Assembly (NCBI GenBank): GCA_024398515.1
Contig: JAKSIZ010000030.1
Location: forward strand, 1 to 33,058
DNA: 33,058 nucleotides
Direction: 5' to 3'
Source: Bacteroidaceae bacterium
GTDB taxonomy: Bacteria > Bacteroidota > Bacteroidia > Bacteroidales > Bacteroidaceae
This document shows positions 2,546-29,071 of this stretch, one piece after another. The number at the start of each line of letters is the position of its first letter. Within the stretch, counting starts at the first letter, position 1. The position numbers were made by a program, and so were the translations under genes. The notes under the pieces were generated by a model, which had not been told where the DNA came from, did not search any database, and was given only the letters and a program-made list of their open reading frames with translations.

Positions 2546-5392
2546 ATGAATACAAATAAATTTTCAAAGCTTATAGCAGCCCTCCTGATTGCCCATGCCT
2601 CTCACGCTTTGGCGCAGAACGACACTATTATCGGGCCTTACGGAGAGAAGACTGCTATAAATGCAAGTCTTGGAGCTGTTAGCACAGTGAAGGGTACCGA
2701 CTTGGAGAAATATCTTTCCACAGACATCCTCACAGGATTGCAGGGACGTATGGCGGGGTTTAACGTGTCGCAATATCGCGGTTTCTTCCTCCCACATACA
2801 AACAACAACGTACAGTCTGCACTCATAGGTTCAATACCTACAGAGTTTGGACATGGTTCTTACAGTGACAATACGCGTTTCAACCTCAAGGCACGTGGCA
2901 ATGCGCCAGTAGTAATCGTTGACGGTATAGAACGTGACATTTTCGATATCGACCCAGAAGCCATTGAGTCTGTGTCGTTGCAGCAGGATGCCCTTTCGTC
3001 ACAATTCTTGGGAATGAGAAGTTCACGAGGTGCTCTGATCATCACCACCAAGAACCCTACAAAAGGCAAGATGCGTCTCTCTCTGACAGGTAAGCTCGGC
3101 GTACACAGCAGCGTGCGCAGCATTAAGCCATTGTCGTCGGCACAATACGCATATTTGCTCAATGAGGCAATGCAGAACGGTGGCAAGTCGGCTATCTATA
3201 ATTACAATGACTTTCAGGCTTATCTCAACGGAAACAGTCCTTACACCCATCCGGACATCAACTGGGAAGATGCCCTGATGAGGGATAATGCGATAACGCA
3301 GTCGTATAACCTCAACGTGTCGGGCGGCAGCAACGTGGCGCAGTACTTTGTCTCCATCGGCTATATGAACGAGGAAGGACTGTTTCGTCAGAGTTCTGCC
3401 AACAACTACAACACAAACCTCACGTACAACAGATACAGCATTTCCTCGAAGGTAAACATCAACGTGCTTGAAGGACTGACGGCATCGCTCACGGCGTATG
3501 GTCGCGTAATAGAAGGAAACCAGCCTGGCGGCTCGGGAACTGGCTACAGCGATTTGCTCGATGCTATATTCACCACGCCGAACAATGCTTACCCTATAAG
3601 GAACGAAAATGGATCGTTTGGCGGCAACTATGCCTTCCAGAACAACCTTTACTCGCAGACTATGGAGAGTGGATACATATCAGACAATACCCGCGACATT
3701 ATGGCATCAGCCAAGTTGCGCTATGAGTTCGCGGGCAGCCTGAAAGGACTTGCTATGCAGTTCATAGGCAGTGTAGCCAATCAGACAAGAACGACGATTA
3801 CCCGAGTGAAACGTAATCCTGTGTATGAGTTGAACTACGACGACAATGGCAAGCCATTCTATAATATGTATGGTTCGCCACAGTCGCAGAGCAATGACTT
3901 TACGGCAGTTACCAATTACCAGAACCTATACGGTCAGTTGTCGATAGAGTATGGCAAGCAGATAGGCTTGCACAGTTTCATGGGTAAAGTAGTGGGCGAC
4001 ACTCATGAAGAGATTGACGATTATGACCTGCCTATTGTTCCGTCTAATATAAAGGAAAGCATAGTCTATAACTATGATAAGAAGTATTATGTAGAAGGAG
4101 TGTTGACACAAAGCTATTTCAACCGTTATGCTAAGGGCAACCGTTGGGGCAATTTCTATGCCGTTGGTTTAGGATGGGACATCAGCCGCGAACAGTTCCT
4201 ATCATCCACCTCATGGCTTAACCAACTGAAGGTTCGAGGCGTGTATGGACTTACGGGCAACGGCATTGACAATGCAGGATATTTCATATACCGTCAGGCA
4301 TTCGAGAACAACATGGTGTCGCTCTATCCTCTTGGCACAGATTTTACTAATGGCTATTGGACTTATGAAACTACACCACTTGCCAATCCATATATCACAT
4401 ACGAGAAAGCCCATAAACTAAACGTGGGTGTAGATATGTCGGCATTCGGCAACCGACTGCAGGCAACGGTGAATTACTATAACGACAAGTATTTCGACCT
4501 GCTGCAGGAAAGGGGTAAGAGCATAGAGATGATAGGAATAGAATATCCAACGGAGAACATTGGGAAATCGCGTCGTACAGGCGCTGACATATCGCTCACT
4601 TGGCAGGACAAAAAAGGAGGGTTCGGCTACTTCGTAACAGGCAACTGGAGCATAGCCAAGACAAAACTACTCTTTATGGATGAGCAGAGGACACCTTATA
4701 ACTATCTGCGTCAGACTGGACGACCAGAAGGCGTAATCTTTGGTCTGCAGGCAATAGGCTTCCTCTCGGCCGACGACATTGCTGCTGGCTATCCTAAGAT
4801 GGATGGATACGATGTGCAGCCTGGCGACGTCAAGTATGCCGACTTGAACAACGACGGAGTAATAAATGAATGGGACCGCACCGTAATAGGAGGCGACAAA
4901 CCAGAACATATATTCGGTTTTGAATATGGCATAGAGTACAAGGGGATTGAATTCAGTATGTTGTGGCAAGGAGTGACAGGACGTGACCTCTATGTAAACA
5001 ACCGCACACTGGTAGAAGGATTTCAACCAATAGGCAACTCGTACGGACAGGCATATCAGAACCTCCTTGCACGATGGACACCCGAAACTGCTGAAACGGC
5101 AACATATCCTCGCCTCACAGTGGGTGGCAATACATATAACTATGGAGGTTTCTACAACTCGTCGCTTTGGGTTGAAGACGGCAGTTTCGTGCGTCTCAAG
5201 AATCTATATCTCGCATATACTTTGCCTTCGGATTTCTGCAAGAGTAAGTTAGGAGGCATACATCCTAAAATCTTTATTGAGGCACAAAACCTGCTGACAT
5301 TTGCCAAGACGAGCATTGTAGATCCAGAGGTCACATTTACCTCGTCGCCACTCCAGCGCACCATAGCATTTGGCATTAACATTAAGTACTAA
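2546..5392 (+). CDS. SusC/RagA-family TonB-dependent outer-membrane transporter, short form
   Basis: This encodes 948 residues with a cleavable signal peptide ending near HALAQ. Unlike most SusC proteins it has no N-terminal carboxypeptidase-regulatory-like beta-domain: the mature protein goes almost directly into the plug (residues about 30-175). The plug has GLQGRMAGFNVSQYRG, a VVIVDGIERDIFDIDPEAIESVS segment split by short turns, and SRGALIITTK. A roughly 770-residue 22-strand barrel follows. It contains the common SusC marker YADLNNDGVINEWDRTVIG and ends in an aromatic residue (AFGINIKY), as expected for BAM-assembled barrels. It imports a substrate handed over by a SusD partner, powered by TonB-ExbBD. 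The SusD that follows starts 16 bp downstream and is the obvious partner. Confidence 0.95.
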   Translation: MNTNKFSKLIAALLIAHASHALAQNDTIIGPYGEKTAINASLGAVSTVKGTDLEKYLSTDILTGLQGRMAGFNVSQYRGFFLPHTNNNVQSALIGSIPTEFGHGSYSDNTRFNLKARGNAPVVIVDGIERDIFDIDPEAIESVSLQQDALSSQFLGMRSSRGALIITTKNPTKGKMRLSLTGKLGVHSSVRSIKPLSSAQYAYLLNEAMQNGGKSAIYNYNDFQAYLNGNSPYTHPDINWEDALMRDNAITQSYNLNVSGGSNVAQYFVSIGYMNEEGLFRQSSANNYNTNLTYNRYSISSKVNINVLEGLTASLTAYGRVIEGNQPGGSGTGYSDLLDAIFTTPNNAYPIRNENGSFGGNYAFQNNLYSQTMESGYISDNTRDIMASAKLRYEFAGSLKGLAMQFIGSVANQTRTTITRVKRNPVYELNYDDNGKPFYNMYGSPQSQSNDFTAVTNYQNLYGQLSIEYGKQIGLHSFMGKVVGDTHEEIDDYDLPIVPSNIKESIVYNYDKKYYVEGVLTQSYFNRYAKGNRWGNFYAVGLGWDISREQFLSSTSWLNQLKVRGVYGLTGNGIDNAGYFIYRQAFENNMVSLYPLGTDFTNGYWTYETTPLANPYITYEKAHKLNVGVDMSAFGNRLQATVNYYNDKYFDLLQERGKSIEMIGIEYPTENIGKSRRTGADISLTWQDKKGGFGYFVTGNWSIAKTKLLFMDEQRTPYNYLRQTGRPEGVIFGLQAIGFLSADDIAAGYPKMDGYDVQPGDVKYADLNNDGVINEWDRTVIGGDKPEHIFGFEYGIEYKGIEFSMLWQGVTGRDLYVNNRTLVEGFQPIGNSYGQAYQNLLARWTPETAETATYPRLTVGGNTYNYGGFYNSSLWVEDGSFVRLKNLYLAYTLPSDFCKSKLGGIHPKIFIEAQNLLTFAKTSIVDPEVTFTSSPLQRTIAFGINIKY

Positions 5393-5408
5393 ACAAAAGG
5401 ATAAAACA

Positions 5409-7190
5409 ATGAATAAAAGAATATTATCAGGCGTATTACTGACTATTACATTGTCAATAATATCATGTACTGACAGTTATGAGGAACTGCCTGTGGATCA
5501 ATTTACCCAGGAGTACGTGTTTTCTACAACCGATTCCATCGGTGAACAGGCTTCATATTTCCTGAACGCTATCTATGGTGCACTGCCAAACGGGTATAAC
5601 CGTGTTGACAAGGATTTCCTTGATGCTGCAACCGACGATGCCATCTCGCTCTATTTTGACAGCGAACCAGGTGTGGCTCGTCTGCAGATGGGACGCTATA
5701 CGGCAAGCAATCTTGTGGCAGACGATATGACATGGGGAACATGGTATAAAGCCATCAGGAAGTGTAACTATTTTATCAATAACATTGATGTGGTGCCATA
5801 TCGTGAGACTTACACCAATGCCCTCGGTGAGGTGAAACCTATAAACTATACAAAGAAGGCAGAGGCACGATTTCTTCGCGCATTCTTCTATTTCCAACTG
5901 CTTGAGCGTTATGGAGGCATACCTTTGCTCGGCGATAAGGTTTATGATTTGAATGACGACATGGAACTGCCTCGCAATACGTTTGCGGAGAGCGTTGACT
6001 ATATCGTCAGTGAACTTGACTCGATAAAGAACGACTTGCGCGAGACATCTACTTCTGACCCTAATTATGTGCATGCGGCAACCACTGTAGCATGTGAGGC
6101 ACTGAAGATAAGGGTGCTGCTTTATGCCGCTTCACCACTGTTCAATGGTCAGACGTTAGAGAAAGGCAACCCATACGTAGGCTATGTGGATTATGATCCG
6201 AATCGCTGGAAACTCGCCGCTGATGCTGCACGCGAGTTCATTGAGAAACGTGGCAAGACTGGCACATCAACCTCACCGAACGTGAAGTTCTTCCAACTCA
6301 AGTCTTCGTTTACAAGCACTTTCCTAAATCATCAAGGTTCAAGTAACTATGAGACGATATTCTTCCGCAATAACGGAAAGGAAAGCAAGAGCATGGAAAC
6401 AAATAACGGCCCTCTCGGCTTTACGGGTTCAAAACTTGGTAATGGGCGTACAAACCCTACACAAAACCTTGTTGACGCATTCCCTATGAAGGATGGAAAG
6501 AAAATAGGAGAGAGCACGAAGTACAAGTATGACCCACAAAAGCCGTACGAGAACCGTGACCCACGACTCGATTTCACAATCCTTCATAATGGTTCGCAAT
6601 GGCTCAACAGCATTCTCGATACACGTATTGGCGGAGCAAATAACCCAGCAAGCACAGGCCGCTATTCCATGACAAGCTACTACACATGTAAGTTCATGGG
6701 GGAGAATAAGACAACGACGGAATATGGCAACCATAAGGACCTATGGGTATATTTTAGGTATGCCGAGGTGTTACTCAACTTTGCAGAAGCTGAAAATGAG
6801 GTTAACGGACCTACTGACGATGTGATAAACGCCATCATCCACATACGCAAACGTGCCGGAATTGAAGCTGGTTCGGACAAGAAGTACGGAATAGATGTCA
6901 ACATGACAAAGGATGAGATGCGCGAATTGATACATAACGAACGACGCATTGAGATGGCATTTGAAGAGCAGCGCTATTATGACATTCGCCGATGGCGCGA
7001 AGCTGAAAAGATATTTGCGGAGCCTCTGAAAGGCATGAACATCATAAAGGGCTCTAACACAACAGTATATTCGGTTGTCGATGTGCTTAAGGTTAACTGG
7101 ACTAATAAGATGTATCTGTACCCGATACCATATACTGAAGTTAATAAAAACGACCAGATGGTTCAAAACCCTTATTGGGAGGTAAGGTAA
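5409..7190 (+). CDS. SusD/RagB-family nutrient-binding lipoprotein
   Basis: This encodes 593 residues from ATG 5409. The frame extends 13 codons further up into the SusC end, but the start at 5409 gives a clean lipoprotein signal (MNKRILSGVLLTITLSIISC, cysteine 20). The N-terminal SusD-like region contains KKAEARFLRAFFYFQLLERYGGIPL, the conserved TPR-like helical segment, followed by the variable ligand-binding part. The C-terminal RagB region has YFRYAEVLLNFAEAENEV and NERRIEMAFEEQRYYDIRRW. It should form the lid of the SusC encoded immediately upstream. The stop at 7188-7190 touches a hexanucleotide repeat that fills the gap to the next SusC gene. The substrate is unknown. Confidence 0.95.
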   Translation: MNKRILSGVLLTITLSIISCTDSYEELPVDQFTQEYVFSTTDSIGEQASYFLNAIYGALPNGYNRVDKDFLDAATDDAISLYFDSEPGVARLQMGRYTASNLVADDMTWGTWYKAIRKCNYFINNIDVVPYRETYTNALGEVKPINYTKKAEARFLRAFFYFQLLERYGGIPLLGDKVYDLNDDMELPRNTFAESVDYIVSELDSIKNDLRETSTSDPNYVHAATTVACEALKIRVLLYAASPLFNGQTLEKGNPYVGYVDYDPNRWKLAADAAREFIEKRGKTGTSTSPNVKFFQLKSSFTSTFLNHQGSSNYETIFFRNNGKESKSMETNNGPLGFTGSKLGNGRTNPTQNLVDAFPMKDGKKIGESTKYKYDPQKPYENRDPRLDFTILHNGSQWLNSILDTRIGGANNPASTGRYSMTSYYTCKFMGENKTTTEYGNHKDLWVYFRYAEVLLNFAEAENEVNGPTDDVINAIIHIRKRAGIEAGSDKKYGIDVNMTKDEMRELIHNERRIEMAFEEQRYYDIRRWREAEKIFAEPLKGMNIIKGSNTTVYSVVDVLKVNWTNKMYLYPIPYTEVNKNDQMVQNPYWEVR

Positions 7191-7225
7191 CGAAAACGAT
7201 AACGATGACGATAACGAAAACGAAA
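7190..7225 (+). repeat. Hexanucleotide tandem repeat in the SusD-SusC gap
   Basis: The triplet ACG recurs every 6 bp at 7190, 7196, 7202, 7208, 7214 and 7220, with purine/T-rich triplets between (AAA, ATA, ATG, ATA, AAA). This period-6 tract takes up most of the 47 bp between the susD stop and the susC start at 7238. Copy-number change would alter the spacing between the two genes without touching either reading frame, because the period is a multiple of three. Confidence 0.8.
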
Positions 7226-7237
7226 CCTGAAATGGTT

Positions 7238-10200
7238 ATGAAAAGATTATTTGCGATATTAACAATATGTATCTGCGTTGCTCTTGGCACATACGCGCAG
7301 AATGTGATTACTGGCGTTGTTATCTCGGCTGATGACAACGAGCCTATGATAGGAGTGACTGTAAAGGTTAAAAACACTTCCACAGCCACTGTAACTGATA
7401 TTAACGGACATTTCTCTATCAATACGACAAAGGGTAAGACGCTCTTGTTCTCGTATATTGGATATAATAACAAGGAAGTAACAGCTACTGGTGAGAATCT
7501 GAGGATTGTCATGAACCCTGAATCAAATGCCATTAATGAAGTGGTAGTTGTAGGATATGGTCAAGCGAAACGCATCACGATGACTGGTGCCGTAAGTGCT
7601 ATCAATGGTACTGAGGTGCAGAAGGTTCCTGTGAGCAATGTGCAGAACGCTTTGGTTGGCAAGTTGCCTGGCTTTTTCTCGCAGCAGCGTTCGGGACAGC
7701 CAGGTAAGGACGCATCCGACTTCTTTATCCGCGGCGTATCGTCGCTTAACTCGGCAGGAAACCAACCTCTCATCATCGTTGATGATGTGGAATACAGCTA
7801 CGAACAGTTAGCGCAAATTAACGTTAATGAAATAGAGTCCATCTCAATCCTTAAGGATGCATCCACAACAGCCATTTATGGTATCAAAGGTGCCAATGGC
7901 GTTCTCGTCGTAAAGACAAGACGCGGCGAGAATGGACGCCCTCGCATTAACGTACGAGTAGAAAGCGGCTTGCAGATGCCTGTTCGCACTCCTAAATTCC
8001 TTGGTTCATACGAGACTGCCCAATTGGTTCGACAAGCATACGAGAACGACGGACTTGTAAACTATGATGCCAATGGCGTGGCAACTGGATATCCAGAGAA
8101 AGTGTCTGATGTCGCTCTTGAGCATTATCGTCTCGGAGATGACCCGTATGCATATCCAGACGTTAACTGGTATGACGAGATATTTAAGAAAACAGCGCAG
8201 CAGAGCAATGCGAACGTTGATATTTCTGGAGGTACCGAGCGGTTGAAATACTTCGTGTCTGTAGGCTACTTTACGCAGAACGGACTTGTGCGCGACTTTG
8301 GCGTAAAGAACGACGATGTAAACTCAAACTATTTCTATCGCAGGTTTAATTACCGTTCGAACCTCGACTTCCAAGTGACAAAGAACCTCTCCATGAGACT
8401 CGACATCACATCACGTTTCATGAACATCAACGAACCCTATGGATTGAATGCTACTGGCACAATCTATTCATGGGATGAAATGCACCCATATTCTGCACCT
8501 GTAGTCAATCCAAACGGAACGGATGCCTACCTCTATGACACCAACCTGAAACGACCTACGCTGAATGCACGTTTGGCAAACTCTGGTTACAAGCGTACAA
8601 GGCGAGTTGACAACAACTTGCTCTATAATGTTAACTGGGATATGAACTCCATCACTGAAGGTCTTTCGAGCAATGTGCGTATAGCCTATTCCACGATCGA
8701 TGAGAATTATCGTTCTGTTTGGAGGGGTAGTTTCCCTACGTATCATGCCACTCAAGCTGGCACAGACGAAAACGGAAATCCTATTTATGCCTATAACATC
8801 AATCCTGACAACGTGTTCACGAAAGGAACATACGCTGTTACCGCAGGCACTAACACCGCCAGAAAAGACCTTAACTTGCAGGCAGCCCTACAGTATGCAC
8901 GTGTGTTTGATGATGTACATGATGTCAGCGCAATGTTCCTTTACAACAGGGAGTCAACAACTTTGGAGAGTTCCGGACAAAAGATTCCTGAGAAATTTTC
9001 TGGATTGACTCTCAAACTTAGTTACAAGTATGCCAACCGCTATCTTGCAGATATAAACATGGCATATAATGGTTCTGACCGCTTTGCAGCAGGACATCGC
9101 TATGGTCTCTTCCCAGCAATAGGTCTTGGATGGGTTATCAGCGAAGAACCGTGGTTTAAGAGAACTTTTGGCGAAAAGGTTGATATGCTGAAACTCCGTA
9201 CGTCGTACGGCTTGGTAGGATCTGACGTTGCTATGGGCGACCGCTATCTCTACAATCAAGTCTATGAGGTAGGCAGCAGCTACTACTTTGGCGACCGTGC
9301 TGTTGAGCATATTGGTTACAAAGAAGGTGCGTTGGGCAACGACAACGTGACGTGGGAGAAGGCAAAGAAGTTCGATATAGGTCTTGACTTCTACTTGCTC
9401 AACCGCATAACTTTCAGCATTGACTATTTCTACGACAAACGCTATGACCAGCTTGTATATCGCTCTGACATTCCTCTCATCCTAGGCATTGGAACGTCGC
9501 CTATCAATGTGGCACGTACACGCAACCAGGGTTTCGATGGACAGTTGGGCTACCATGACAAGTGGGGTGACTGGCAGTTTAACACAAATTTCGTCTTCTC
9601 ATACGCTAAAAACAAGATAGAGTATCAAGCCGAGGCACAACAGCTTTATCCGTGGCTCGCATCTACAGGCAAGTCAATAGGTCAGCAATTCGGCTATCAT
9701 ACGATAGGGTATTATACTCCAGAGGACATTGCATTGATTAATGCTGGTGACGCAAATGCACCAGCCGTGCCGAACACTGACATCGCCGTGCAGGCAGGCG
9801 ACCTGAAGTATGCCGACCTCAATGGCGACGGCACCATCGACGACTACGACAAATCGGCCATCGGTAAGCCAAACCTTCCTAATACCACTTTAGGACTTAC
9901 GCTTGGTGGCAGTTGGAAAGGTCTTTCATTGAGCGTTTTGTTCCAGGGATCATTCAATTATAGTTTCTCCGTCGTTGGTACAGGTATAGAGTCGTTCAAG
10001 TCGCAGTTCCAGCCACTGCACCAGCAGGCATGGACGCTTGACCGCTATAACTCTGGCGCAATGATTAATTTCCCACGTCTCACTACCAACCCTTCAACGG
10101 TCAATAGTGCCGAAGCATACATGTCTGACTTCTGGCTTATTGATGCGTGGTACGTACGTTTGAAGACCATCGATCTCAGCTATACGTTCCCTCGCAAAGC

Positions 10201-10435: not shown

Positions 10436-13400
10436 ATGATTACTTTCAGATATATTGTTTTTATTATATGTGTATTGTGTTCATGCACCATATTTGCCAA
10501 TGAGGAATGGGCAGATGTGACAGGTCTATACATCAAGAACTCCACTTACGCTAACAATAATAACGATTCTTGGCTTGGTACAGAACTGAATTTTGACGGA
10601 GCTGTGTCGAATGCCTCTCACTTCCAGAAGACATACGACACTTACCAGCCGATATTCAAATTGCCAGCAGGACGCTACCGTTTGTTGGTGCAAGGCTTCT
10701 ATCGTGCAGGCGATGCCAGTAAGGACTATTCCCGTTTTAATGAGGATGGCGATGGTTGGCGACTTGCTACGATGTATGCCAAATGTGCAGACACCACTTT
10801 CTCTGCAAAACTTGTGCATTGCAGTTCGGGTGCGGTTGCTCGCAGCTTTGGAGGCAGCACGGCAAAGGTCGAAGGCAAGTATCTGCCTAATGACATGGTT
10901 GCTGCTCACAAGTGGTTTGAGGCAGGGTATTATAACAATATGTTGGAGTTTGAACTCACAAAGGAAGAGAACATAACAATAGGTATAGGCAAAAACAAGT
11001 TCGTTGGAGGCGACTGGACTTGCATTGCTAATTGGCGACTTGAGTATTGGACTGACAACATACACGTTGAAAGCATAACGTTTGATTCTCCATCGATGTT
11101 TATGGCTCTTGGCGAGGAGAGGCAGTTGCGCCCAGAGGTGAAACCAGACAATGCCGTAAACAAGTTGATAAGATGGCAATCGGGGAATACACGTGTAATC
11201 ACTGTCAGCGAAGACGGACTGGCAAAAGCTATGAGCGAAGGTTCTGCTGTGCTGACTGGCATTGCCGTTGATGGCAGTGGCTGTAAAGTGGAATGCAACG
11301 TGACGGTGCGCAAGGTTGCTGGCACTCGACAGAACATTGTTATGAACGAGATCATGCCATCCAATATAGACATGTTCATCGACATGTCGTACAATTTTGG
11401 TTCATGGATAGAATTGTACAACCCAACGGACACGGCTGTCACACTTGCTGGGTTGTACATTACTGACGATGCGACGAATTTAAGGAAATATGGATTTACA
11501 CAGAACCACGGTGCTGTTCCCGGAAAGGGCTACAAAGTTATTTGGTTTGACCATTATGACGAGTATGCACCGCAACAGGTGAATTTCAAGCTTGAGTATG
11601 AAGGTGGCACAATAACCATATCCAACGGCAATACTGTGCTGGCACAGTTTACTTACCCCGAGACTCCTGCCCGAGCATCATACGCTCGCACAGAGGATGG
11701 TGGTGCTAAATGGAGATTTACAGCCATGCCAACCCCTGGGGCATCAAACACTACCAGCGTGTTCGCATCCAAACAACTGAACCCACCTACCGTTGACAGG
11801 GAAGGACAGTTGTTTACTGGAGCGCTGACTACTCACGTTGCGATACCTGACGGTACGACATTGCGCTATACACTTGACGGAACTACACCTACCGATGTTA
11901 ATGGAATGACATCCGAGAGTGGCGAATTCACATTTTCAGAAAGTGCCATGTTGCGTCTAAGACTCTATCGTGACGGCTATTTGCCAAGTAAGGTCGTGTC
12001 GCATTCCTATATATTAAAGACACGTGATTTCGTATTCCCGATAATTTCAGTCATCACCAATGATGATTTTATCAACAGCAAGGAATTGGGACTCTTTCAG
12101 CGAGGACCGCACGGTGCACCAGGGCGTGGCGAGACAACTCCATGTAACTGGAACCGCGATTGGGACCGTCCTGTCAACATGGAATACTTTACGCCTGATG
12201 GTAACGGACAATATACTCTGGCACATAATCAGGAAGTAGATTTCTCTATGGCTGGTGGATGGAGCCGCAATTGGACACCACATTCATTTAAGCTTAAGGC
12301 CGACAAGCAGTACTATGGCGAGAACTTCCTGTCGTACCCGTTCTTTAAGGATAAGCCATTCAACAAGAACAAAACCCTGCAGATGCGCAATGGTGGCAAC
12401 GACACACAGTGTCGCATAAGGGATGCCGTCATTCAGGAAGTAGCACGTCGGGGCGGATGGTATGTCGATGGGCAATGTTGGCAACCTACCCATATAATAT
12501 TGAATGGCAAGTACTATGCCACTCTGAACATGCGTGAACCAAGCAACAGGCACTTCGCCTATGCCAACTATGGAATAAGCAGCGATGACATTGACCAGTT
12601 TGACCTCAGCCCTGATTCAGGATTGATATGCATGGAAGGTAACTTCGACGCACTTAACCGCTGGACAGAACTGTCGAAGTCTGCCACAAAGCAGTCGTCG
12701 TATGACGAGATTTGCGAGCTTGTAGATATTGATGAATATATCAACTACCTGTGCGTAGAACTATACTTTGGTTGCAACGATTGGCCACAGAACAACTGCA
12801 AGTACTTCCGCAAGAAGGATGGCAAGTTCCACTTTGTCCTTTTTGATCTCGACTCAGCACTCTCGACAAACGATCCTTTCGGATGGTTTGCAGGTCGCAA
12901 GAGTGCATCTTACAATAAGTATGATCCTATTACCGGACAACGAAAGCAGGTGACTGAAGAAATTCCCCACGTGGCAAACTTCTTGAGAATGTTGGACAAC
13001 GCTTCGTTCCGCAAAAGGTTCATTGATGCGTTTTGTGTCTTTGGCGGTTCTGTTGCTACGGCAGAAAGGTTTAAGGATGTTGTAAATGATGTTGCAAACA
13101 TCGAAGGTTTGAATGGCTTTGTAAATCCATCTGCTACAGCCGAGAGTATGTTGAAGGCCGTTGGCGATTCCTACAACGGCACCATGACAAATGCTCTTAA
13201 AAACTATTCCGCATTCAAACTATCACAGACTCCGAAGCAGACTCTCCACCTATCAACCAACATTGACAATGCAAAACTTTCACTCAATGGCATAACCATT
13301 CCTACTAATACCTTTGACGGAGTATTCTTCGGACCTGCTACACTGAAGGCTGAGGCTCCTGCAGGCTATCGCTTTGCTGGATGGTTAGGTAATGGCGTAT

Positions 13401-15046
13401 GGAAGACAACACCGATTTTCACATCCGACAGCGAATGGAAATACTACACCAAAGGCTCTCTTAATAGCAAAAACTGGTATTCAACGGATTATTCAGATGC
13501 CCGATGGAGCACGGGCAAAGCACCTTTAGGGTATAATCAGAATGGACTCAACACTACTATTCCATACGGAGGCAACCCTGACAAAAAATATCCTACCTAC
13601 TATTTCCGCAAGGTATTTGAGATTAACAACGTCCCCGACGATGCCGATTTTATACTCAATTATTCTGTTGACGATGGATTTGTCGTATATGTAAATGGTG
13701 TAGAAGCCGGACGCTACAACATGCCTTCCGGCGACATCTCTTACTCGACTTACGGACAGTTGGCTTCAAACAATCCTGACGTTGGTTCGCTCACATTGGA
13801 TAAAAACCTTTTCCATATAGGCGAAAACCTTATTGCCGTCGAAGTGCATAACTACTCTGCTGCTTCAACCGATGTAGTATGGAGCGCAGAATTGGGACTG
13901 CTGACACCCGACAACGACATTTCGCAGTATGATTCCACTGAACCCGAGTTTACTCTGAACTTTGATTCCTCCATAACCCTGAAAGCCGTGTTCAAGCCTC
14001 TGGCAAAGATGGACAAAAAGACAAGGGAAATAACTCCTGTCGTAATCAACGAGGTAAGTGCCAACAACGAGATATTTATAAACGAATACTTTAAGAAAGG
14101 CGATTGGATAGAACTCTATAACACGACCGACGAGAATATTGATGTGGCTGGTATGTATGTCAGCGACAATGCTTCAAAACCAACGAAATACCAAATTCCT
14201 GCATCTGCCGGCACTACCAATACAATTATACCGGCACATGGATTCCTTGTAGTGTGGTGTGACCAAACAACCAAACAACCAAACGACCAAACGGCCAACC
14301 AATTGCACGCATCATTCAAACTTGATGCTGACGGAGGCGACGTATTGCTCACCGCAAGTGACCTCTCATGGACTAACACCTTGAACTATCCGCCGCATGA
14401 TGGCTGGCACTCCGTAGGACGTTTCCCTGACGGAGCAGAAAATACATACATGTTTGCAATGCCGTCAATAAACAAGACCAACCGCTTGATATTTGCCGAC
14501 AACATTGTCTATTCACCTACATCAACAAAGGATTTGTGTCGTGAAGTGGAAACCACCAATCTCACCGTTCCTGTAAGTCAGAATGAGCTCAATGTCCCCT
14601 TCTCCAAACTCTCTGAGATTGCCGACGCCATCGAATCCAACGACCTGCTTACGGGCGAACACCTTCGCGGGCTTATGGACGATGGCTACTGGAGCAATCC
14701 TGTAGCAGCAGTCAACAATTCGCTCACGTTCAATCAGCAAGGCTACTGTAGCAACGGCGCAGACATCACACTGCGGTTCGATGATAGCAAAATCTACACA
14801 CGTGCCAAGGTCGCACCTGACGACCACTGGACTGCAAACGCACTCGTCTGCTTCCAGAATGCGTTCAAGCGTTACACCATCCACCTAACCCTCATGTCGG
14901 AAGAGGAATACACCGCGGGCATCACAACCTTAAAACCTCTTAACCCTACAATCTCAAGCAATGCCTACAACCTCGCAGGGCAGCGTATCTCAACCTCATA
15001 TCGAGGCATCCAAATCATCAATGGACGTAAGGTTATAAAGCCGTAA
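10436..15046 (+). CDS. Large secreted CotH-kinase-family protein with lamin-tail and Ig-like domains
   Basis: This encodes 1536 residues with a signal peptide ending near residue 21 (TIFA-NEEW). Approximate order of domains: an N-terminal beta-sandwich (25-205); a bacterial Ig-like group 2 domain (212-292, RWQSGNTRVITVSEDGLAKA); a lamin-tail domain (303-410, NEIMPSN and GSWIELYNPTD); a chitobiase-C-terminal-like domain (448-525, TTLRYTLDGTTPTD); a CotH kinase domain (534-900); a beta domain (about 1000-1165); a second lamin-tail domain (1202-1310); and a short tail, YNLAGQRIS...IINGRKVIKP, like the sorting tails common in Prevotella secreted proteins. The kinase domain has the conserved SFKLKA (K619, K621), IRD (D663) and the metal-binding-type LFDLDS (D804, D806), so activity is plausible. 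CotH proteins are atypical protein kinases. Its acceptor here is unknown. It is last in the Sus operon. Confidence 0.88.
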   Translation: MITFRYIVFIICVLCSCTIFANEEWADVTGLYIKNSTYANNNNDSWLGTELNFDGAVSNASHFQKTYDTYQPIFKLPAGRYRLLVQGFYRAGDASKDYSRFNEDGDGWRLATMYAKCADTTFSAKLVHCSSGAVARSFGGSTAKVEGKYLPNDMVAAHKWFEAGYYNNMLEFELTKEENITIGIGKNKFVGGDWTCIANWRLEYWTDNIHVESITFDSPSMFMALGEERQLRPEVKPDNAVNKLIRWQSGNTRVITVSEDGLAKAMSEGSAVLTGIAVDGSGCKVECNVTVRKVAGTRQNIVMNEIMPSNIDMFIDMSYNFGSWIELYNPTDTAVTLAGLYITDDATNLRKYGFTQNHGAVPGKGYKVIWFDHYDEYAPQQVNFKLEYEGGTITISNGNTVLAQFTYPETPARASYARTEDGGAKWRFTAMPTPGASNTTSVFASKQLNPPTVDREGQLFTGALTTHVAIPDGTTLRYTLDGTTPTDVNGMTSESGEFTFSESAMLRLRLYRDGYLPSKVVSHSYILKTRDFVFPIISVITNDDFINSKELGLFQRGPHGAPGRGETTPCNWNRDWDRPVNMEYFTPDGNGQYTLAHNQEVDFSMAGGWSRNWTPHSFKLKADKQYYGENFLSYPFFKDKPFNKNKTLQMRNGGNDTQCRIRDAVIQEVARRGGWYVDGQCWQPTHIILNGKYYATLNMREPSNRHFAYANYGISSDDIDQFDLSPDSGLICMEGNFDALNRWTELSKSATKQSSYDEICELVDIDEYINYLCVELYFGCNDWPQNNCKYFRKKDGKFHFVLFDLDSALSTNDPFGWFAGRKSASYNKYDPITGQRKQVTEEIPHVANFLRMLDNASFRKRFIDAFCVFGGSVATAERFKDVVNDVANIEGLNGFVNPSATAESMLKAVGDSYNGTMTNALKNYSAFKLSQTPKQTLHLSTNIDNAKLSLNGITIPTNTFDGVFFGPATLKAEAPAGYRFAGWLGNGVWKTTPIFTSDSEWKYYTKGSLNSKNWYSTDYSDARWSTGKAPLGYNQNGLNTTIPYGGNPDKKYPTYYFRKVFEINNVPDDADFILNYSVDDGFVVYVNGVEAGRYNMPSGDISYSTYGQLASNNPDVGSLTLDKNLFHIGENLIAVEVHNYSAASTDVVWSAELGLLTPDNDISQYDSTEPEFTLNFDSSITLKAVFKPLAKMDKKTREITPVVINEVSANNEIFINEYFKKGDWIELYNTTDENIDVAGMYVSDNASKPTKYQIPASAGTTNTIIPAHGFLVVWCDQTTKQPNDQTANQLHASFKLDADGGDVLLTASDLSWTNTLNYPPHDGWHSVGRFPDGAENTYMFAMPSINKTNRLIFADNIVYSPTSTKDLCREVETTNLTVPVSQNELNVPFSKLSEIADAIESNDLLTGEHLRGLMDDGYWSNPVAAVNNSLTFNQQGYCSNGADITLRFDDSKIYTRAKVAPDDHWTANALVCFQNAFKRYTIHLTLMSEEEYTAGITTLKPLNPTISSNAYNLAGQRISTSYRGIQIINGRKVIKP
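14261..14300 (+). repeat. Octanucleotide tandem repeat inside cotH
   Basis: Four consecutive 8-bp units of the form (G/A)ACCAAAC occupy 14261-14292, followed by a degenerate fifth (GGCCAACC). They encode residues 1276-1288 (DQTTKQPNDQTAN) in a loop of the second lamin-tail domain. Because 8 is not a multiple of 3, gain or loss of one unit would shift the frame and remove the C-terminal region of about 250 residues. Confidence 0.82.
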
Positions 15047-25430: not shown

Positions 25431-26381
25431 CTACAATGCTGGAAGTACAATCGAATTGTACTCGCTTATCATCTCGTCGATAATCTGTTTGCAAGGTTTC
25501 ACTTCCTTTATGGCAGATGCAATCTGACCTATTTCGAGTTCTCCTTCAACGAGGTCGCCATCGAAGATTCCGAGTTTCGGGCGACCTGCACCTATTATCT
25601 CAAGCAGTTCCTCGGCAGAGGCGCCACGGTTCTCGGCTTCGAGTATCTTGTCGAAAAATTCGTTTTTCACAAGTCGTGTAGGCGATAGTTTCTTCAACAC
25701 CAACAGCGTGTCGCCCTCTTGCAAACTGATACAACGTTGCTTGAAAGCGTCGCACGCACCACTCTCCTCGGCTAATGCGAATGCTGTTCCGACCTGTACT
25801 CCTTCAGCTCCGAGAGCAAAAGCGGCTGCCATTGCCCTACCCGACGCAATACCTCCGGCAGCAATCAACGGCACGCATCCGTTTAAAGCATCTGCCACCT
25901 GAGGGATAAGTGTCATGGTGGTCGTCTCCTCCTTGCCGTTGTGCCCACCTGCCTCAAAGCCTTCTGCCACAACTGCATCAACGCCAGCCTCAGCACTCTT
26001 GAGGGCAAACTTGCTACTCGAAACTACGTGTGCCACCTTTATTCCAAGGTCGTGAAACGTCTGCGTGAACTTCTTTGGGCTTCCTGCTGAGGTAAATACC
26101 ACGGGTGGAAGTTCCTGCTTTATCACCTCGACAAGTTCTGCTGCATTGGGTTTCATCAGTGGGAGATTGACTCCCCACGTACCGGTTTCATCACCCGAGA
26201 GCGATGCTTTCAGCTTTTGCATGTGCTCGCGCAGCACATCAGCAGTCATTGATCCTGCTCCGATAAGTCCTAAACCTCCTGCCTTGCACACGGCAATAGC
26301 AAGTTTCCAACCACTACACCAAACCATGCCACCGGCTATGATTGGGTATTTTACGTTAAATGTTTTACAAATTCTGTTCAT
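25431..26381 (-). CDS. Nitronate monooxygenase / FabK-like FMN-dependent oxidoreductase
   Basis: This encodes 316 residues forming a TIM-barrel flavoprotein of the 2-nitropropane dioxygenase superfamily. Signatures: the N-terminal YPIIAGGMVWCSG; VNLPLMKP; the flavin-site loop AEGFEAGGHNGKEE (G141 to G149, with H147); and AAGGIASGRAMAAAFALGAEGVQVGTAF, the phosphate-binding part. Members either oxidise nitronates or, as FabK, reduce enoyl-ACP in fatty acid synthesis. The sequence alone does not decide between these, though the AEGxExGGHxG loop is shared with FabK. It starts 2 bp after the stop of the deiminase gene and is the last gene of that operon. The link between the two activities is unexplained. 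Confidence 0.88.
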   Translation of the reverse strand: MNRICKTFNVKYPIIAGGMVWCSGWKLAIAVCKAGGLGLIGAGSMTADVLREHMQKLKASLSGDETGTWGVNLPLMKPNAAELVEVIKQELPPVVFTSAGSPKKFTQTFHDLGIKVAHVVSSSKFALKSAEAGVDAVVAEGFEAGGHNGKEETTTMTLIPQVADALNGCVPLIAAGGIASGRAMAAAFALGAEGVQVGTAFALAEESGACDAFKQRCISLQEGDTLLVLKKLSPTRLVKNEFFDKILEAENRGASAEELLEIIGAGRPKLGIFDGDLVEGELEIGQIASAIKEVKPCKQIIDEMISEYNSIVLPAL

Positions 26382-26383
26382 AA

Positions 26384-27862
26384 TTATTGTAATACTTTAA
26401 TATATGGAGATTGTTTTGTTGTTTTTATTTTTAAGTCTCCACGTGTCGATTGACCTCGTTGTGCCACGGTGAATGTGTGTGGTTCAAGGTCACCGAACAC
26501 TGGTTGCAGGCTCTTGTTGCCCAAGATGTCCTCACCCGATAGGTAATAATCAATCTTCGATTTCTCATTGAAGCCAGTGATTTGGGCTATAAACGTATCA
26601 CCTTCCGTCTGTATCATCTGCACGTTTTGCCATGCGCCGCCGTCTATTCTGTAGTGCAACAATAGCGAATCCTTTCGAAGCTGTGCGCCACTATAGGCAA
26701 TAAATCTGGTCGAAATGACGTATTCGCTTTGCCAAGGTTGCTCCCCGAAAAGCACATCACGATGGTCAATGAAGAGCATATTGAAATCTGGAATCTCATG
26801 CGTTCTGCAATGAAGAGCATCGGTATTATACCAGGAAAGACTGCCTTCGACCTGTTGTATCTCGTCGCTTACATATTTATCCATGCCTTCTACTCCTATC
26901 ACTTCATATCCTGGCAGGGCATTCCGATATACGTCGAGAGCTTTCTTATTATACGAAGCATCCGTTCCAAGCGGCATATAGAGGCGTTTGTTTATTATAA
27001 GCGCATTGGTATATGGTGCCAAAACCGATGCATCGGGTTCATCTATGCGATACACCTTATAAGGATAACCCCAGCAACATGGAGTGTTTTCGAAGTATGA
27101 GGCAACTTCTTCATAGTATTGATACTTGGGAGAAGTCTTGGGGATTCGTGCTATCACGACCTTGTCTGGCGCAAGAAACTTGCCCCAACAATCTACGTGT
27201 GCTATGTATTCTTTCTGTGGATCTATCGTTATCAGGTACTTGTCTATACCGAGGTATCGCCTCATTTCTTCACGTACAAACGATTCGTCATGCCTGTTTT
27301 CCTGCAACACCAAGTCATCACTTACGGCTGTTCCTCTACCGTCTTGCATAAGGTTTCCACCAGTATGAACCAACAAAGTCGAGTAGTATGGCAGGCCCAT
27401 CTTCACAGCCATACGTATGGCGAGGCTATCATCGGCTGTTCTGTTGCGGTTGTATTTGAAGTCGATTACGGCAGGTTTTCTGTCCTTGAACACAAACCAA
27501 GGACCACAGTCGCGCACCCAACAGAAGTAGTGCCACGTTGTGTGAATGTCGTCGCAGAAGTGTATGCGGTTCAACGTGACGCCTGCCATGCTCAGTATTG
27601 GGATTGCATTCGTGCCGAGTGTGTCGCCAACAAAATAGACATCAACATCCTCAGTCAGCATTCGGATGAAGTCGAGAGGCACATTGTTTGGCCAAGCAAG
27701 CATCACTCCCTGCATTTGTTCAAATTCACCAGGGAATCTTATCTCAGCATTTTCGTCAATGGGATGGTCTCGTACAATGCTATCCTCATCGTCGCTACAA
27801 GCCACAACAAGCATTGCCACACAGCACAACGCCACAACAATCTTCAATCCTTTTGCAATCAT
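26384..27862 (-). CDS. Peptidylarginine-deiminase-like lipoprotein (PPAD/agmatine deiminase superfamily)
   Basis: This encodes 492 residues from the ATG at 27862; six more are possible from 27880, and the residue numbers here count from that longer start. Lipobox LVVAC (C28) is followed by SDDED, which fits the Bacteroidetes surface-export signal. The catalytic domain (about 47-385) has WVRD (W121, D124), YNRNR (R145, R147), HTGGNLMQDG, YIAHVD (Y225, H228, D230) and ALHCRTHEIPD (C358). These line up with P. gingivalis PPAD residues W127, D130, R152, R154, Y233, H236, D238 and C351 as I remember them. An Ig-like C-terminal domain follows (about 387-472), as in PPAD, but no type IX secretion CTD. 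PPAD converts C-terminal peptide arginine to citrulline. The Arg pair argues against a plain agmatine deiminase. Second gene of its operon. Confidence 0.88.
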   Translation of the reverse strand: MIAKGLKIVVALCCVAMLVVACSDDEDSIVRDHPIDENAEIRFPGEFEQMQGVMLAWPNNVPLDFIRMLTEDVDVYFVGDTLGTNAIPILSMAGVTLNRIHFCDDIHTTWHYFCWVRDCGPWFVFKDRKPAVIDFKYNRNRTADDSLAIRMAVKMGLPYYSTLLVHTGGNLMQDGRGTAVSDDLVLQENRHDESFVREEMRRYLGIDKYLITIDPQKEYIAHVDCWGKFLAPDKVVIARIPKTSPKYQYYEEVASYFENTPCCWGYPYKVYRIDEPDASVLAPYTNALIINKRLYMPLGTDASYNKKALDVYRNALPGYEVIGVEGMDKYVSDEIQQVEGSLSWYNTDALHCRTHEIPDFNMLFIDHRDVLFGEQPWQSEYVISTRFIAYSGAQLRKDSLLLHYRIDGGAWQNVQMIQTEGDTFIAQITGFNEKSKIDYYLSGEDILGNKSLQPVFGDLEPHTFTVAQRGQSTRGDLKIKTTKQSPYIKVLQ

Positions 27863-27913
27863 CCTTATATGTTCACACATACATTATCACACAATCTTCT
27901 ACCCTCTTCTCTC

Positions 27914-29071
27914 CTATTCTTCTTCCTTTGTCTTGCCAGTGAGGATTATACTTGCTACTCTGGTAATATCTGCTACGTCAACAACGCCATCATCATTCGT
28001 GTCGCCCTTTGGCTGGTTGTCGTATTCTACATAAATCTCACTGTTGCCTGTGATTTTTGGAGTAGTGTATTTGCCGTCTGCCACATCAGCCGTAACATCT
28101 TCACCATTGAAAGTCACAGCAACTATTTTACCATTTTTCTTGTTGTCTAAAAGATATTTATACGTTTTTCCTATTTCAACGGCTTGCTGAAGAATAGCAC
28201 CATTCACCCCCATAATTGTCAAATAAATATCTTCCTCTGGTTCATCTGAGAATTCTTCAATATTAACAAACTCCATCCACACAGGAGCAGAGCAAAACAT
28301 TGACCATGTTCCTTCAGGCACATATAACACACATTTTTTCTTATCCACACCATACCATACACCATCTTCTATGTTTAGCGGTCTTTTCCAATGTACCTTT
28401 ATGCTTGCCAAACTATAACATTGCATAAAAGCAGCATAGTCAATCGAAGTCACTGAATTAGGTATTGTCACACTTGTCAAGCTTGAACAGCCGTCAAAAG
28501 CAGAACCGCCAATTGATGTCACGGAATTAGGTATTGTCACACTTGTCAAGCTTGAACAGCCAGAAAAAGCAGCATTGTTAATCGAAGTCACGGAATTAGG
28601 AATTGTCACACTTGTCAAGCCGTAACAGCCAGAAAAAGCATAACTTCCAAGCGAAGTCACGGAATTAGGAATTGTCACACTTGTCAAGCTTGTACAATTC
28701 ATAAAAGCATAACTTCCAATCGAAGTCACTGAATTAGGGATTGTAACACTTGTCAAGCCGTAACAGTAACCAAAAGCATAATTTCCAATCGAAGTCACTG
28801 AATTAGGTATTGCCACACTTGTCAAGTGATCACATATATAAAAAGCAGCCTCGCCAATCGAAGTCACATCTTTGTCGAATGTAATTATTCCCTGACCATT
28901 TGAATATTTATTACTTACGATAGTAGCGCCACCGAATGCATGGCTATCGTTTGGATTTACAACTTTGCCATACAATGATGTGTAATAGATAGTGTTGTTT
29001 GGGATAGCCCTTGCTCCAATGCTTATCATCCCGAATATGCAGAGCATAAAGAAAATTTTTATCTTAATCAT
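27914..29071 (-). CDS. BspA-like leucine-rich repeat secreted protein with dockerin-like C-terminus
   Basis: This encodes 385 residues. A signal peptide (cut near ARA-IPNN) precedes seven tandem 23-residue LRR_5/BspA repeats (69-229) of the form VTSIGxxAFxxCxxLTSVTIPNS, each with a cysteine at position 12. A linker follows (KVHWKRPLNIEDGVWYGVD, a common BspA tail), then a segment with a MGVNGAILQQAVEIGKTYKY start. The C-terminus is GDTNDDGVVDVADITRVASI, a calcium-loop, dockerin-like motif frequent in Prevotella surface proteins. BspA proteins bind host matrix proteins and mediate adhesion or coaggregation. It is first in an operon with the PPAD-like gene, which begins 51 bp (or 33 bp) later. 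The N-terminus has no lipobox. Confidence 0.92.
   Translation of the reverse strand: MIKIKIFFMLCIFGMISIGARAIPNNTIYYTSLYGKVVNPNDSHAFGGATIVSNKYSNGQGIITFDKDVTSIGEAAFYICDHLTSVAIPNSVTSIGNYAFGYCYGLTSVTIPNSVTSIGSYAFMNCTSLTSVTIPNSVTSLGSYAFSGCYGLTSVTIPNSVTSINNAAFSGCSSLTSVTIPNSVTSIGGSAFDGCSSLTSVTIPNSVTSIDYAAFMQCYSLASIKVHWKRPLNIEDGVWYGVDKKKCVLYVPEGTWSMFCSAPVWMEFVNIEEFSDEPEEDIYLTIMGVNGAILQQAVEIGKTYKYLLDNKKNGKIVAVTFNGEDVTADVADGKYTTPKITGNSEIYVEYDNQPKGDTNDDGVVDVADITRVASIILTGKTKEEE
28446..28928 (-). repeat. 69-bp tandem repeats encoding BspA leucine-rich repeats
   Basis: The motif GAAGTCAC (or GATGTCAC) recurs with an exact 69-bp period at 28446, 28515, 28584, 28653, 28722, 28791 and 28860. In each unit about 36 bp is nearly invariant (coding LTSVTIPNSVTS) and about 33 bp varies. 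The exact period and high identity suggest repeat gain or loss by recombination. Confidence 0.92.

Follow-up and report, generated by a model that had tools for sequence, protein, structure and literature searches.

The peptidylarginine deiminase of Porphyromonas gingivalis (PPAD), studied for a link to rheumatoid arthritis, is often described as the sole bacterial enzyme of its kind. Indeed, it has been called the only known prokaryotic one (PMC4487231, PMC4585897, PMC6367333), and PMC12599369 lists only P. gulae and P. loveana as further carriers. PPAD bears a C-terminal tail for the type IX secretion system (T9SS). In its active site, the substrate guanidinium is held by D130 and D238, catalysis is carried out by C351, H236 and N297, W127 and I234 pack on the substrate side chain, and the C-terminal carboxylate is bound by R152, R154 and Y233; R152 is indispensable, and about 30% of activity is left in the R154A variant (PMC4487231). 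The solved PPAD chains are without the T9SS tail. Here we describe a PPAD-like gene on the minus strand of the Bacteroidaceae contig JAKSIZ010000030.1 (assembly GCA_024398515.1), the whole 33,058-nucleotide stretch of which is called the window. Its product, the window protein, is probably a PPAD-type exo-peptidylarginine deiminase that would be tethered to the outer membrane by a lipid and face outward.

The window protein matches the Pfam family PAD_porph (9.3e-30), and a phmmer search against solved structures returned P. gingivalis PPAD as the best hit (1.2e-78 over residues 41 to 467, covering the catalytic and immunoglobulin (Ig)-like domains). The five top distinct sequences in that search are all P. 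gingivalis PPAD; after them come agmatine-type enzymes from plants and bacteria, none better than 1.3e-11. Judged from these alignments, the similarity to PPAD is far beyond chance. Pfam also assigns residues 399 to 440, inside the Ig-like part, to CBM_56, with 27.3 bits (cut-off 27).

The original prediction, made from the nucleotide sequence, had named a set of PPAD-like residues in matching order and with similar spacing, followed by an Ig-like domain. Both features proved real: all 15 PPAD site residues that were checked are identical and in register (Table 1, together with T167 and G169, equivalent to T180 and G182), and the Ig-like domain behind the propeller aligns with that of PPAD. 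The identical residues include the catalytic Cys, His and Asn, the two guanidinium-binding Asp residues and the carboxylate-binding Arg, Arg and Tyr. The Asp, His, Asp and Cys originally listed were correct, but the list had omitted the equally required Asn; likewise, the two Arg residues were rightly picked but numbered R145 and R147 from the first ATG, and become R139 and R141 in the 492-residue form that begins at the second ATG, to which all our residue numbers refer. Structure prediction, proposed at the outset as a check, yielded a model with the PPAD fold (about 35% identity) in which the Ig-like domain is present and the carboxylate-binding residues are predicted to lie in register with those of PPAD. 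Thus, both domains, the 15 site residues and the predicted fold are common to the window protein and PPAD (PDB 5ak7, 4yt9 and 4ytg), and together the alignments and the model make a strong case for a PPAD-type enzyme.

Agmatine deiminases are cytosolic enzymes. These single-domain proteins (PF04371; for example PDB 2jer and the putative 1xkn) share the propeller and the Cys, His, Asp and Asn residues with the window protein but lack the Ig domain. The window protein could be a deiminase that, although exported, acts on small guanidines such as agmatine or free arginine and leaves its peptide pocket unused: the Pfam family and, weakly, the NCBIfam agmatine models match it, an ordinary agmatine deiminase was not found in its own genome, where the only other PAD_porph match is an atypical protein of 452 residues, and PPAD itself can also deiminate free arginine (PMC12599369). 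We consider this unlikely, because the agmatine deiminase model TIGR03380 gives 59 bits where its curated cut-off is 381.8, and because the protein combines an Ig-like domain and a lipoprotein signal with the carboxylate-binding Arg, Arg and Tyr, a site missing from nearly all of 18 agmatine-type rows of the genus. In one alignment, these 18 rows keep the Cys, the His, the Asn and both Asp residues, whereas Arg occurs at the R152 position in 1/18 and at the R154 position in 3/18, and Tyr at the Y233 position in 0/18. The corresponding counts among PPAD-like rows are 66/68, 65/68 and 61/68, where the 68 rows contain the window gene twice (L003 and L100; relatives are designated by locus handles), the identical pairs L050/L076 and L054/L088 and three contig-cut rows, the repeats L002 and L117 having been removed beforehand. 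The agmatine-type count took in 18 of the 29 genus loci L004 to L032, the weak agmatine-type BLAST rows varying between runs. These weak genus matches lie mostly in frames of about 315 to 440 codons, and the match ends near residue 326, ahead of the Ig domain. The identity of a plain agmatine deiminase was rejected on the TIGR03380 cut-off and the site residues.

The window protein starts with MIAKGLKIVVALCCVAMLVVAC-SDDEDS, in which a lipobox (LVVAC, with Cys22) can be read by eye according to the usual lipobox rule. What follows the Cys, a polar and then acidic residues (CSDDED), has by eye the pattern of Bacteroidota surface lipoproteins: SDDDD is the consensus after the Cys in Bacteroides fragilis surface lipoproteins, and it is reported to drive surface display in Capnocytophaga canimorsus (PMC5080379). 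Only 25 residues separate the Ig domain from the stop codon, between which and the next gene lie 2 bp, and domain scans of the protein for a T9SS sorting domain found no match. The enzyme domains are therefore those of a PPAD-like protein, which is nevertheless not classed as a T9SS-exported PPAD, and the original proposal of a lipobox and SDDED in place of a T9SS tail stands. Among 61 PPAD-like proteins scanned (60 relatives and the window protein), 53 match the type A sorting domain of the T9SS with an E value of at most 0.01, and the window protein is one of the eight without a match. Alignment A1, also of 61 proteins, leaves out L100, L076, L088, L116, L118, L122 and L092. Fewer than 50 residues after the Ig domain, in a gene not cut by a contig end, were seen in the 68 rows only for L071 and the window gene. 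These sequence features suggest that export is what sets the window protein apart from most of its relatives, and the lipoprotein route is well supported. Lack of a T9SS was rejected as the cause of the lipoprotein form: the window genome has SprA (2591 bits), PorU (969.9 bits; cut-off 420) and six sorting-domain matches over the cut-off (24 to 44 bits), one of them in the PorU frame.

The same enzyme could instead be a lipoprotein that faces the periplasm and acts on imported peptides, since both orientations are compatible with a lipobox as such and the surface motif is known from genera other than that of the window genome. However, the B. fragilis consensus is matched by the Ser at +2 and the four acidic residues behind it, and the T9SS-tailed relatives would act outside the cell, which leaves a periplasmic position distinctly improbable.

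Table 1. Positions in the window of the PPAD-like gene, its protein parts and the adjoining downstream gene
Feature	Position	Strand	Basis or remark
PPAD-like lipoprotein gene	26384..27862	-	492 aa from the second ATG (27862); alternative ATG at 27880 (open reading frame 26384-27880) gives 498 aa
Predicted signal peptide, residues 1-21, lipobox LVVA at its end	27800..27862	-	sequence
Cys22, predicted lipidated +1 residue	27797..27799	-	codons read
SDDED at +2 to +6, resembling the B. fragilis surface-lipoprotein consensus SDDDD	27782..27796	-	codons read; motif from PMC5080379
Predicted catalytic alpha/beta-propeller domain, about residues 41-372	26747..27742	-	Pfam, PPAD alignment, model
W115-V-R-D118 (PPAD W127, D130)	27509..27520	-	PPAD alignment
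R139-x-R141 (PPAD R152, R154, C-terminal carboxylate binders)	27440..27448	-	PPAD alignment; PMC4487231
Y219-I-A-H222-V-D224-C225 (PPAD Y233, I234, H236, D238, C239)	27188..27208	-	PPAD alignment; PMC4487231
N286 (PPAD catalytic N297)	27005..27007	-	alignment; PMC4487231
T347-D348-A-L-H-C352 (PPAD T346, D347, nucleophile C351)	26807..26824	-	PPAD alignment
Ig-like domain, about residues 378-467, matching the PPAD immunoglobulin superfamily (IgSF) domain; no T9SS tail after it	26462..26731	-	Pfam, alignment, model
Nitronate-monooxygenase/FabK-like flavoprotein gene, 2 bp downstream	25431..26381	-	below NCBIfam FabK cut-off

From the observed homology, the identity of the site residues, the fold of the model, the signal motif and the lack of a T9SS tail, we infer how a surface-anchored PPAD-type enzyme would work. 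The protein would be exported by Sec and lipidated at Cys22, and SDDED would then direct it to the surface. Its five-bladed propeller would bind a peptide with Arg as the last residue, wherein the C-terminal carboxylate would be held by R139 and R141 with Y219 of the closing loop, and the guanidinium by D118 and D224. Attack by C352 with H222 and N286 would release ammonia and leave a C-terminal citrulline. Candidate substrates are peptides that other proteases, on the surface or in the environment, have cut behind an Arg.

The neighbors of PPAD-like genes elsewhere bear on this substrate. At 6/31 named loci, a protease of the gingipain family C25 is encoded either in the flanking DNA or in one frame with the PPAD-like part, all six confirmed by Pfam, and this number is a lower bound because flank lengths differ. 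In a contig (JAIORR010000111.1) of a Cloacimonadota metagenome-assembled genome (MAG), a single frame of 1684 codons (L092:215-5266, +) fuses an Rgp-like prodomain, catalytic and Ig part (9.7e-105) to a full PPAD-like part (1.1e-113). A protease expected to leave C-terminal Arg is thus joined to the expected modifier of C-terminal Arg, and this predicted fusion is strong support, at the level of the family, for the proposed substrate. At L084, an Rgp-like C25 frame (4349-7822; 2.3e-106) precedes a PPAD-like frame (7836-9539). L062 (1774-14534) and L067 (345-15264), which like L084 come from MAGs titled Bacteroidales, have C25 proteases on both sides: upstream one that is Kgp-like (matching Lys-gingipain at 4.3e-104 and 8e-108, respectively), downstream one closer to Rgp; the Kgp-like neighbors give no support for the substrate because their expected cut is after Lys. 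Further C25 proteases occur at L076 and L080. Beyond these proteases, a neighborhood shared across relatives was sought and rejected, synteny being confined to small groups (L063/L069/L077, partly with L074 and L070/L073; L064/L065; L075/L078). A literature search, with most subscription papers and all preprints outside its reach, found no report of a PPAD that is a lipoprotein, of one from Prevotella or of a fusion between Rgp and PPAD.

PPAD had originally been taken as special to Porphyromonas, which is not so: 107 of 392 other Bacteroidales genomes have a match of 207 bits or more (PPAD itself scores 268), in agreement with a 2021 paper according to which the spread of pPAD genes had been underestimated (PMC8826395). 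PPAD-like genes outside Porphyromonas are thus already known, and the lipoprotein export form is what is unusual here. At E 1e-15, 143/393 genomes of the order match, the window genome included, whereas at E 1e-20 the family gives 1/349 (30 genera) and a larger draw of the genus 1/398. A 200-genome genus draw, which overlaps the larger one and is not additive with it, has a PPAD-level match only in the window genome, the next best being 50.6 bits. The enzyme is therefore common in the order but almost absent from the family of the window genome. The phylum draw gave 4/394 other genomes at E 1e-50 or better, all from one genus. The 31 named loci are titled Bacteroidales or Bacteroidia, Flavobacteriia, Cloacimonadota (five), Fibrobacterota (one) and a Firmicutes MAG (one); the L066 gene, from a record titled Prevotella, clusters with genes of a different family, f101. 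Among the nearest relatives, L063, L067 and L069 are by record title from buffalo or cattle gut and L072 from horse feces; the bearing on host autoimmunity suggested in the original prediction is conjectural.

The more careful of the trees, with 62 rows, makes the window protein sister to L071 (bootstrap 100; Shimodaira-Hasegawa-like approximate likelihood ratio test 99), a protein from the Bacillota MAG UBA3738 (L071:4876-6234) on a long branch (1.36). The two share 13 residues found in at most three other rows, any other row sharing at most seven. By plain identity, the window protein is 53% identical to L033 and about 44% to L071. Trees were built without L100, L076, L088 and the contig-cut L116, L118 and L122. 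Both sisters have a lipobox and no tail, but L071 lacks the equivalents of W127, R152 and R154 and an acidic run directly after its Cys, and its substrate has probably changed, as these replacements suggest. The L071 flanks, which by our reading encode a PhoB/PhoR-like pair and a Na/Pi cotransporter-like protein, fit its Bacillota label. Longer Bacteroidales PPAD-like proteins (e.g. L033 to L036 and L062 to L069; 48 to 53% identity) have both domains and the same key residues but, unlike the window protein, ordinary-looking signal peptides and C-terminal extensions. A quick tree, which added PPAD and had L009 as its only agmatine-type outgroup, nests P. gingivalis PPAD within the family, where it groups with three proteins from Cloacimonadota (98), to one of which it is 52% identical, a grouping that hints at a lateral origin of PPAD itself.

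The single occurrence in the family and the sister in another phylum suggest lateral transfer of the window gene. Carriage by a phage or plasmid was rejected: a viral-contig scan, which reaches close relatives only, gave no match, and in none of 24 matching plasmid records does the match extend over 80% of the query. In seven genus members, the genes around the flavoprotein gene are different ones, with only weak SusC-type matches in one, so that no empty site is definable. This difference and the rarity of the gene in the genus would also fit a misbinned contig, with the gene coming from another Bacteroidales lineage. RNase E/G on the same contig, however, is 62 to 71% identical to its counterparts in 21/23 other genus genomes with a match and at most 60% identical in 14/16 other-family genomes with a match, so the contig belongs to its genus; a Prevotella-like host, as the original prediction put it, would be compatible with this. 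Moreover, the six best of 15 flavoprotein matches in other genomes belong to the genus, GC content and third-position GC content (GC3) of the PPAD-like gene are inside the range of neighboring genes, and the contamination estimate is 0.25%. Misbinning is thus hardly credible.

Several observations weigh against a surface-anchored exo-peptidylarginine deiminase. Given the residual activity of R154A PPAD, conservation of R154 is only partial evidence, and the losses in L071 indicate that drift on this branch has reached precisely the pocket in question. The definition of the export motif comes from genera other than that of the window genome, and the lipobox was read by eye. In a departure from the partner setting of PPAD, neither Rgp nor Kgp was found in the window genome, whose assembly is 87.8% complete; its sole C25 match, considered as a gingipain, proved to be the PorU sortase. 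The genome has a C11 clostripain-like protease, for which Arg specificity is conjectural.

The PPAD-like gene and the downstream flavoprotein gene may be co-transcribed. Upstream, a BspA-type leucine-rich repeat protein is encoded at 27914-29071 (-), with an end stretch that we take to be dockerin-like. Elsewhere in the window, 10436-15046 (+) encodes a protein of 1536 residues that combines CotH kinase, lamin-tail and Ig-like domains, and SusC/SusD-type genes lie next to it. The second PAD_porph protein of the genome (L001:1489-2847) has an N-terminal hydrophobic stretch, and the gene beside it presumably resembles an AbiEii-type nucleotidyltransferase. In the genus genomes L006 and L019, frames of 686 and 692 codons have a deiminase-like region that begins around codon 207-216 and an N-terminal part of no assigned family.

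We tentatively propose a broader scenario, possible though short of probable, in which citrullination of C-terminal Arg is an old and widespread surface chemistry of Bacteroidota and Cloacimonadota, performed in two steps together with Arg-cutting gingipains, as the neighboring genes and the fusion suggest. A side branch may have dropped T9SS export, become a lipoprotein and crossed phyla, and its present host would be a cell equipped with type IX parts in which no gingipain was found. With a widespread family and a second export route, citrullinating capacity is not readable from Porphyromonas alone. The gingipain neighbors and the fusion open a direct test of the role of this pair in bacteria unconnected with human disease. 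For enzymology, a small and tail-free form is available in the lipoprotein branch.
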